54,443 nucleotides of DNA, from the NCBI GenBank assembly GCA_003599295.1, contig QZJK01000014.1, positions 1-54,443 on the forward strand. Direction: 5' to 3'. Of the stretch, positions 39,142 to 41,826 are shown piece by piece. Within the stretch, counting starts at the first letter, position 1, and each line of letters opens with the position of its first letter. Origin of the DNA: Candidatus Parcubacteria bacterium. GTDB lineage: Bacteria > Patescibacteriota > Minisyncoccia > Phycocordibacterales > UBA2100. The notes under the pieces are model-generated. The model had not been told where the DNA came from. It searched no databases and worked only from the letters and a program-made list of their open reading frames with translations. The translations under genes and the position numbers were made by a program.

Positions 39142-39564
39142 CTAGAGTTCCGAATCAATGCCCATCGAGCGGGCCGTGCCGGCGATTATCTTTTTCGCCT
39201 GCTCTGTGTCGTTCGCGTTCAAATCTTCCATCTTCTCCTCGGCTATTTCTTGGAGCTGCTGTTTCGTAAGTTTGCCGACTTTGTTCTGCGCTTTCTGTGA
39301 ACCCTTCTCCATGTTGAGCTTTTTAAGGATGAGACGCGACGCCGGCGGCTTCTTGACGACGAAGTCGAAGCTGCGGTCGTTGTAGACCTTCATGAGGACC
39401 GGCACAATGTTGCCCGCCATCGGCCTCGTCTGGTCGTTGAATTGCTTGACGAATTCTGCGATGTTCACACCAGCGGGGCCGAGGACGGTCCCAACAGGCG
39501 GCGCAGGCGTCGCGGCGCCCGCTTGAATCTGAAGTTTTATGAGTTTAACGACTTGTTTGGCCAT
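39142..39564 (-). CDS. rplK: Ribosomal protein uL11
   Basis: '[44 protein letters not shown]'. Confidence 0.97.
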
Positions 39565-39618: not shown

Positions 39619-40161
39619 TTAAACTCTTTGGACCTGGTCGGCCTCCAATTCAACCGGCGTCTCGCGGCCGAACATCGGAACCAATACCTTAACCTTTCCG
39701 CGCTCTTCGTCAATCTCGCCGACTTTCCCTTCAAGGTCCTTGAAGGGGCCGTCAATGATGCTGACCGCGTCGCCTTCGGAGAGGTCTATCGCGTGGCGGA
39801 CGGTGTCGCCCTCCGTGCGTTTGAGGATTTTCTCCGCTTCTTCGGGTGAGAGCGGCACCGCCTGATTTGCCGTGCCGACAAATCCGGTAACTTGCGGAGT
39901 ATTGCGCACGACGCTCCATGCATCATCGGTCGCTATCATGTCGACCATGACGTAGCCGGGGAATATCTTTTCGCGCACTTCCGTGCGGCGGCCGTTCTTT
40001 ATCTTTATTTTCTTCTCCGTCGGCACAACGACATTGAATATTTTCTCTTTCATGCCAAAAGATTCAACGCGCTGTTTGAGATTGCGCGCGACGGCGTCTT
40101 CATAGCCGGAATACGTGTGAATGGCGTACCACTGGCGTTCCTGTCCGTGTGTTTGCTTCAT
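39619..40161 (-). CDS. nusG: Transcription antitermination factor NusG
   Basis: 'RQWYAIHTYSGYEDAVARNLKQRVES', 'KIFPGYVMVDM', KOW 'GDAVSIIDGPFKDLEGKVGEID'. Confidence 0.96.
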   Translation of the reverse strand: MKQTHGQERQWYAIHTYSGYEDAVARNLKQRVESFGMKEKIFNVVVPTEKKIKIKNGRRTEVREKIFPGYVMVDMIATDDAWSVVRNTPQVTGFVGTANQAVPLSPEEAEKILKRTEGDTVRHAIDLSEGDAVSIIDGPFKDLEGKVGEIDEERGKVKVLVPMFGRETPVELEADQVQRV

Positions 40162-40412
40162 AGCTGGGTCGTTGTCGCCGAAACGGGCGTTGACGTCGCT
40201 TCAGGGACGAACGCGGGCGTATTTTGCGGCAAGATCTCGATCACGCGTGCGAGACCCGTCGTGAAGACGTAGTCGAAAAAGCCGAGGTAGAGCGAGACAA
40301 GTATCGACAACGCGATAACAAGTATCGTGTAGATGATGGTCTGCATCCGCGTCGGCCACGCGACGTGATTCAATTCACTGCGCGTGTCTTTCAGGTATTG
40401 AATGAAGGACAT
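40158..40412 (-). CDS. secE: Preprotein translocase subunit SecE
   Basis: 'MSFIQYLKDTRSELNHVAWPTRMQTIIYTILVIALSILVSLYLGFFDYVF'; upstream of nusG. Confidence 0.92.
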   Translation of the reverse strand: MSFIQYLKDTRSELNHVAWPTRMQTIIYTILVIALSILVSLYLGFFDYVFTTGLARVIEILPQNTPAFVPEATSTPVSATTTQL

Positions 40413-40445: not shown

Positions 40446-40466
40446 TAAAAACCCCTCCCGGGGCTT
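40446..40466 (-). terminator. Rho-independent terminator of the ncRNA
   Basis: Minus strand AAGCCCCGGGAGGGGTTTTT. Confidence 0.7.
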
Positions 40467-40855
40467 AAAAAGATAATACTCTTTTGGTTTCTAAAGTCAA
40501 GCTGAGACTGGAAGTCGAGAGGGGGTGTATGCATCCACCGCCTCTCGACTCCTCTTGAAGTATGGGGACATGCCCTACGAGCCCAGATTTCCTTGCCTTG
40601 AGGTTCCCCGGATGTTTCGCCCACAGCTATGGCATACGCCCGTGGGAGTAATAGGAATCTTAGGGTCCCTACGCTTGCACCCTCGTCAACGGCCACAGAC
40701 CAGTTCACCCTATTTCGGAAGGGTGCCCGAACGAACTGATGTGCTTTAGGAAAGAGCCTGGGTGTCGCGACGATCCTCCTTCCAACGGCAAAGGTCTTGC
40801 AAACGGGGGAACGCCCCGTCCTAACCGTGAGACGCCGCCATTGTGTCACGGTCCA
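40446..40855 (-). ncRNA. Highly structured orphan ncRNA, ~410 nt, family unassigned
   Basis: Own promoter and terminator; many perfect stems (e.g. AGTCGAGAGG/CCTCTCGACT, ACCGTGA/TCACGGT, CACCCT/AGGGTG with CAGTT/AACTG, CCCAC/GTGGG); no conserved ORF. Confidence 0.7.
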
Positions 40856-40861
40856 CGGCGA

Positions 40862-40889
40862 ACTATAGGTAGTTTAGCGTCCTCGTCAA
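40862..40889 (-). promoter_or_regulatory. Promoter of the ncRNA
   Basis: TTGACG (40884-40889), 16-bp spacer, TATAGT (40862-40867) on the minus strand. Confidence 0.75.
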
Positions 40890-40890
40890 C

Positions 40891-41706
40891 TTACCGAATC
40901 TCGTACGTCACACTCACGTTGGATGTGATTTTGTTCTCGCCGACAGGAAGCTCTGGAATGGCTTTTACTGATTCTGCGCGGACTGCCGCATCACCACCCA
41001 TACCGTATGCGTACGGCACAGGGTATCCACCCTCATTCTCATAGAACCCGGTCACGCGGACGATAGTGACCCCAAGCTGCTCGGCGAGCGCCGTTGCTTT
41101 TGCTTGTGCATCCTCGATGGCCATACCGCGCGCCTCGGCCTGCAGTTCGTCTTCATCATCAATCGTGAACGAGAGGCCGGATACTTGCGAGGCACCGCGT
41201 GAACCGACTCCAGAGAGAAGCTCTCCCGCCTTTTCCGTGTCGCGCACTTTAACCGTCAGTGTCTGGCTTACCTGGAAGCCGCGAAGTTCCTGGCGCCCCG
41301 GGGGACAAATACCTTCACGACAGACGTCCTGAATGTAATCGTACTGCGGATACACGCTGTAATCCGTTGTCTTGATATCCTTCTCGTCTATTCCCGCTTC
41401 CTTGAGATACGCGATGATGGCATTCGCCTTTTCTGTCGCAGTCTCTTGGGCATCTTGCACCTCTTTCGCTTCCTCCTGGACGGTCACGCTGAACGTGGCG
41501 GTGTCAGGCACGGCGAACACTTCGCCTTCACCCGAAACGGTGATGGTGTTCGTCGCGGGTACACCGGTCCCGATGTACCGAAGGCCCTTGAATTCACCTA
41601 TCGCCGCTATCAATAAAAAGACCGCCAATACGCCAAGGGCGGCGGCGGCCATCATGCGCGGCCAATGAGTTGCATTGATAATCTTATTCACGTTCTGCTC
41701 GTCCAT
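40891..41706 (-). CDS. SIMPL (DUF541) domain protein
   Basis: 'TITVSGEGEVFAVPDTATFSVTVQEEAKEVQDAQETATEKANAII'; N-terminal TM. Confidence 0.9.
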   Translation of the reverse strand: MDEQNVNKIINATHWPRMMAAAALGVLAVFLLIAAIGEFKGLRYIGTGVPATNTITVSGEGEVFAVPDTATFSVTVQEEAKEVQDAQETATEKANAIIAYLKEAGIDEKDIKTTDYSVYPQYDYIQDVCREGICPPGRQELRGFQVSQTLTVKVRDTEKAGELLSGVGSRGASQVSGLSFTIDDEDELQAEARGMAIEDAQAKATALAEQLGVTIVRVTGFYENEGGYPVPYAYGMGGDAAVRAESVKAIPELPVGENKITSNVSVTYEIR

Positions 41707-41826
41707 ATGTATAAATAGACACTGGATTAAGCCAATAATAGGTAACGTCATTATAACGCCCTTCAGGACTATGACGTTCGGATGAAGACGCCATTACAGT
41801 GCACGAAAGCGGTATACTAGAAAACT

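Follow-up and report, generated by a model that had tools for sequence, protein, structure and literature searches.

A candidate non-coding RNA gene with a predicted 5′ pseudoknot upstream of secE in Candidatus Kaiserbacteria

The intergenic region between the SIMPL protein gene and secE of an uncultured, ultra-small Candidatus Kaiserbacteria appears to contain a free-standing non-coding RNA gene of ~350-400 nt, whose conserved 5′ end would form a pseudoknot and whose product would act in trans. We hold this reading with moderate confidence, transcription, size and function all being deduced from sequence. The gene lies on the minus strand of the window (the whole stretch of 54,443 nucleotides that was analysed) and reads from 40889 towards 40446. 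The window's genome is a 717-kb assembly, 98% complete, and the named genomes nearest to it are mostly labelled Candidatus Kaiserbacteria. An earlier note had described an orphan structured RNA with its own promoter and terminator and packed with stems. The promoter, a conserved 5′ domain and the negative Rfam searches support that description; the terminator and the excess of stems over chance did not hold up. The RNA gene looks real, judging from the comparisons below, but its earlier delimitation was wrong. The elements of the locus are as follows.

40891..41751, minus strand: SIMPL (DUF541) protein gene, upstream neighbour (PF04402, E=1.8e-55)
40862..40889, minus strand: promoter of the RNA gene, TTGACG-16-TATAGT, read from the sequence and beginning one base past the SIMPL stop codon
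40778..40854, minus strand: conserved 5′ domain of 77 nt, 86% identical in the homologue (alignment)
40553..40777, minus strand: fast-evolving part of the RNA, unalignable with the homologue and including the RNase P-like stretch (sequence comparison)
40510..40552, minus strand: long-stemmed hairpin (GGAGUCGAGAGGCGG...CCCCCUCUCGACUUCC) without a U-tract, likely 3′ boundary of the RNA (sequence, folding)
40473..40500, minus strand: secE promoter TTGACT-16-TATTAT, outside the RNA gene (sequence; at the same place in 50/50 same-genus loci)
40446..40466, minus strand: hairpin of the secE 5′ leader, AAGCCCC-GGGA-GGGGTTT followed by a U-tract, outside the RNA gene (50/50 same-genus loci)
40158..40412, minus strand: secE, downstream neighbour (Pfam: PF00584, and PF02357, for secE-nusG)
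39619-40161, minus strand: nusG, after secE (Pfam)
39142-39564, minus strand: rplK, after nusG (identified from its sequence)

The gene order given earlier, with the RNA between the SIMPL gene and secE-nusG-rplK, is thus borne out by Pfam and, for rplK, by its sequence. A single other member was found among 52 congeners, in the genome G070 (locus L057, contig JAUSJH010000013.1; BLASTN E=1.5e-20), and both genomes measure about 0.7-0.9 Mb. In G070 the element also lies directly upstream of secE, with which it is co-directional in both genomes, and on its other side the RNA adjoins what looks like the C-terminus of a transposase. The two sequences align without gaps over 113 columns. The strong promoter claimed earlier is supported by this alignment, the block around the −35 box (GTTGACGA) being identical at 8/8 positions and that around the −10 box (CCTATAGTTC) at 10/10, a total of 18/18, while the spacer retains 4/13, which is chance level, and the stretch from the −10 block to the start site 1/5. 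Identity then rises to 66/77 over the first 77 nt of the RNA, beyond which nothing aligns in the remaining 190-290 nt. A quick tree built from SIMPL, SecE and NusG, with weak deep nodes, does not make the two genomes sisters; it places G070 in one group with L016/L023/L024/L026 at a support of 0.999. Because of this separation the sharp boundaries of the blocks stem from selection and not from recent descent, and the combination of a saturated spacer with boxes and a 5′ domain that stay intact is the signature of purifying selection on both the promoter and the RNA domain.

From the position of the −10 box transcription would start at ~40854, and the transcript would probably extend at least to the hairpin at 40510-40552. 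The one long reading frame of the region, 134 aa from a GTG at 40849, has no Pfam match, and in the alignment the same frame of G070 reads GTG ACA CAG TAG, with a stop at codon 4. A coding gene was accordingly rejected, in agreement with the earlier statement that no conserved ORF is present.

We searched the 77-nt alignment for helices that are possible in both sequences. The following elements were found.

40846..40852, minus strand: P1 5′ strand ACCGUGA, pairing with 40824-40830 (two-sequence helix search)
40833..40839, minus strand: P2 5′ strand GGCGGCG, within the P1 loop, pairing with 40784-40790 (two-sequence helix search)
40824..40830, minus strand: P1 3′ strand UCACGGU (two-sequence helix search)
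40801..40821, minus strand: P3 hairpin GGACGGGG-CGUUC-CCCCGUUU, between P1 and the P2 3′ strand (alignment; helix search)
40784..40790, minus strand: P2 3′ strand UGCCGUU (two-sequence helix search)

P2 opens in the P1 loop and closes past P3, giving a predicted three-helix pseudoknot of the H-type. Nine of the 11 substitutions in the domain fall outside the helices and the other two lie in P2, which reads AGCGGCG/UGCCGCU in G070, so that two of its pairs vary with pairing kept (G-U/A-U and G-U/G-C); P3 differs between the two genomes in loop bases only. The joint score of the three helices is 52.7 as against 28.5 +/- 8.5 for column shuffles, 0/3000 of which reached it, and 22/22 pairs are of standard type in both sequences, compared to 41-52% when the pairing is slid. 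Taken singly, the two sequences give marginal pseudoknot scores, equalled by 84/2000 and 66/2000 mononucleotide shuffles. The modelled fold thus fits an H-type pseudoknot supported by statistics rather than by double-sided covariation, none of which occurs in the pairs of these two sequences. CACAAU and GCAAGACC, the strands that join the helices, are largely conserved although they do not pair, and would on that account be the likeliest contact sites.

The SIMPL-secE gap varies in the genus from ~110 nt up to several kb. Small frames resembling ArsR-like winged-helix proteins (assigned by eye on motifs like MTHSAVSHQL) occupy it in L017, L022, L032, L034, L046, L156, L161, L164 and L167, and in other species it contains small orphan ORFs, sequence resembling a transposase (an IS-like transposase end) or nothing. 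Long-range hairpin elements of ~100-150 nt, REP- or MITE-like in appearance, occur in L016, L020, L026, L038 and L159, for example GCATTGCTGCACGGGGGTC...GACCCCCGTGCAGCAATGC, several of them being followed by CCTCGCT or a variant. Judging from these contents, the gap appears to be a hot spot of accessory inserts. At L060 (G066:C12, about 1490-1890) a duplicated 5′ tRNA half precedes a tRNA-Glu gene, and the small frame between the two is GIY-YIG-like by eye (LYILKSQVEDRHYIGIAEN).

A gap that takes up different inserts in each species, be they ArsR-like regulators, ORFs, an IS-like transposase end or hairpins, raises the question of whether the RNA is itself the non-coding end, or an RNA, of a mobile element that landed there. 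The apparent transposase remnant adjoining the RNA in G070 and the patchy distribution in non-sister species would suit such an origin. We nevertheless consider it improbable. No additional copies were present in any genome searched, no terminal repeats or transposase common to the two members were seen, and a randomised spacer next to conserved boxes speaks for long residence under selection, not recent transfer.

The GC-rich hairpin with a U-tract at 40466-40446 had been taken for the terminator of the RNA; it belongs to the secE leader instead. It begins 6 nt 3′ of the secE promoter, which lies about 360 nt downstream of the promoter of the RNA gene. We compared the DNA upstream of nusG in the same-genus genomes having nusG, a set of 50 loci (window 40500-40446, L016-L049, L057 and L156-L169). 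The secE promoter together with its hairpin was present in every one of these Kaiserbacteria loci, 48 of which are without the RNA and some of which have a gap of little above 100 nt, too short for it. The hairpin usually starts 4-10 nt from the −10 box (range 1-15), carries a GNRA loop in 46/50 loci and is followed by a U-tract and a AAATTGGC-like sequence. Counted from the loop, its third pair reads C-G in 38 loci and G-C in 12, a compensatory exchange, and its fifth pair G-U, A-U or C-G. Since it is kept with the secE promoter at loci that have no room for the RNA, the hairpin is where the secE messenger begins. Its location at the inferred start suggests that it stabilises the 5′ end; PMC7509114 reviews such roles of stem-loops in 5′ UTRs. 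Alternatively it could possibly serve promoter-proximal attenuation of the secE-nusG operon, and it may also stop transcripts coming from upstream. Some other Paceibacteria have hairpins of a similar kind. The secE leaders of L028, L030 and L041 are extended and contain long complementary stretches (GAAAATAAGGAG...CTATATTTTC) past the leader hairpin, which possibly form a further regulatory structure.

With this hairpin assigned to secE, the window shows no clear terminator for the RNA: the stem at 40510-40552 lacks a U-tract and is followed by the secE leader hairpin. U-tailed terminators stand at the matching place in G070 and in a further genome, G005, considered below. In G070 this strong terminator precedes the secE promoter, and the RNA of this species would therefore be a separate transcript. 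These arrangements bear on a second explanation, a cis-acting 5′ leader (riboswitch or attenuator) of secE-nusG-rplK in which the pseudoknot would sense a signal and the downstream hairpin would set read-through into secE. The RNA does lie immediately ahead of secE in the same orientation in both members, and in the window no U-tailed terminator stands between it and the secE leader hairpin. However, a strong secE promoter is found downstream of the place of the RNA in all 50 loci, including the 48 that do without it. Because this promoter lies below the RNA and a terminator separates the two in G070, a cis role on secE is the less likely one, and we regard it as doubtful.

The stems of the region as a whole are not more stable than expected by chance (z = −1.37, with 9/100 shuffles equally stable), contrary to the earlier impression of a region packed with helices. 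This result and the lack of conservation in the 3′ part are in keeping with a sequence without function that is decaying or there by chance, a onetime gene or insert that still carries its promoter. That explanation appears very improbable, given that the boxes and the 77-nt domain are kept block-wise beside a saturated spacer in species that are not sisters.

The searches for further members covered the genus (52 genomes), the family (70 genomes, 18 of them beyond the genus), samples of the order (397 genomes) and of the phylum (380), as well as phage records, plasmid records and, by pattern, IMG/VR, and none gave a credible member beyond the two described. A covariance-model match in G311/L171 (25.7 bits) is antisense inside the gene for a predicted 591-aa protein, and a 20-nt match in G068/L061 lies within a predicted reading frame; both were put down to chance. 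Occurring patchily, in 2/52 congeners, the RNA is not a housekeeping RNA.

None of the 4227 families of Rfam 15 matched the window's RNA or its G070 homologue at the gathering score, the chance matches having E values of 3 or more, so that cmscan offers no credible family for either member. A stretch resembling conserved region I of RNase P RNA had been pointed out earlier and is indeed present (AGGAAATCTGGGCTCGTAGGGCA, 23 nt); it is absent from G070, and an ordinary helix of the predicted fold can accommodate it as one of its strands. The genome possesses a canonical bacterial type-A RNase P RNA (RF00010) at C1:7469-7827 (119 bits) and a tmRNA (RF00023) at C1:63904-64291 (93 bits). The suggestion of a divergent or permuted RNase P-like RNA, or of a tmRNA-like one, can be practically dismissed, a housekeeping role being refuted: against this single look-alike stand the missing conserved core, the lack of any RNase P match in the region even at E<=10, the location of the stretch in the portion unconserved in G070, the canonical RNAs elsewhere and the absence of the element from nearly all relatives. 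The element could not be placed as a tmRNA earlier; ARAGORN found none in the window and cmscan no match to the region. 6S RNA (RF00013) was rejected, having no match genome-wide at E<=10, although the model also misses some control genomes and a divergent 6S RNA is possible.

Some local likenesses were also set aside. Within the 5′ domain, CGTCTCACGGTTAGGACG agrees at 17/18 positions with the tRNA-Glu D-arm of several relatives; since the match is only partly retained in G070 (GTAGGG), chance is the simpler explanation. The 3′ part of the G070 RNA has a T-arm-like GCGGGTTCGAACCCCGC, to which nothing in the window corresponds, and ARAGORN reported no tRNA; the T-box-like GGGTGGAAACCGC, likewise in G070, has no Rfam support. 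HDV-like ribozymes share the order of helices (P1 - P2 - P1′ - hairpin - P2′) and a 7-bp P1; they form a nested double pseudoknot with P3/L3 and P1.1 and cleave just 5′ of P1. In the element only 2 nt separate the P2 5′ strand from the P1 3′ strand, so that the HDV P3 hairpin, and hence P1.1, is missing. As the promoter abuts P1, there is no RNA 5′ of P1 to cleave. Rfam gave no HDV match, and an HDV-like ribozyme was rejected.

The SIMPL-secE gap of G005 (L019) contains a transcript-like unit of ~190 nt, whose promoter begins one base past the SIMPL stop as in the window and which ends in the strong U-tailed terminator. Its possible 5′ pseudoknot (8 + 7 bp) has a score reached by 7/2000 shuffles for the first 77 nt and by 42/2000 for the first 110. 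The unit has no sequence relatives in the genus and no similarity to the window's RNA; possibly it is an analogue, or else a member too diverged to be recognised by sequence. Tentatively, the gap could house a class of RNAs kept by layout and 5′ pseudoknot, with near-complete turnover of sequence, of which G005 would be the third member, an idea that we rate as rather unlikely. If true, this class of RNA would be wider than similarity searches reveal.

Returning to the preferred reading, a free-standing gene acting in trans, the RNA is probably a rare, fast-evolving small RNA (sRNA). It is non-coding and has its own promoter, conserved in the homologue. A strong sigma-70 promoter would start transcription at the site proposed above, and the nascent 5′ end would collapse into a compact H-type pseudoknot of P1 and P2 with P3 inserted, the part under selection, while the 3′ part would be a quickly changing scaffold. 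This small RNA would have a regulatory role or bind protein, and its pseudoknot would provide both the binding core and protection of the 5′ end. With bacterial intergenic sRNA genes it shares the sigma-70 promoter, the non-coding and intergenic character, the structured 5′ end and the narrow lineage; it differs from them in that only the 5′ domain is kept and the 3′ part turns over completely, and it matches no sRNA family. Three-helix H-type pseudoknots are also found in preQ1-II riboswitches and coronavirus frameshift elements, which resemble the predicted fold in their two crossed helices of ~7 bp and in the extra hairpin that precedes the second helix's 3′ strand. In contrast to these, to which it has no sequence or Rfam match, the present knot lies at the 5′ end of an apparently separate transcript, is not clearly part of a leader and stands outside a coding frame.

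A search of the open literature found no paper on sRNAs in Candidate Phyla Radiation bacteria, whose regulatory RNAs look little studied. The secE-nusG leader hairpin, found in every Kaiserbacteria locus examined, is a broader signal than the RNA. The RNA itself, with a promoter and a 5′ domain that are under selection in two small genomes that are not sisters, represents a concrete, testable candidate.
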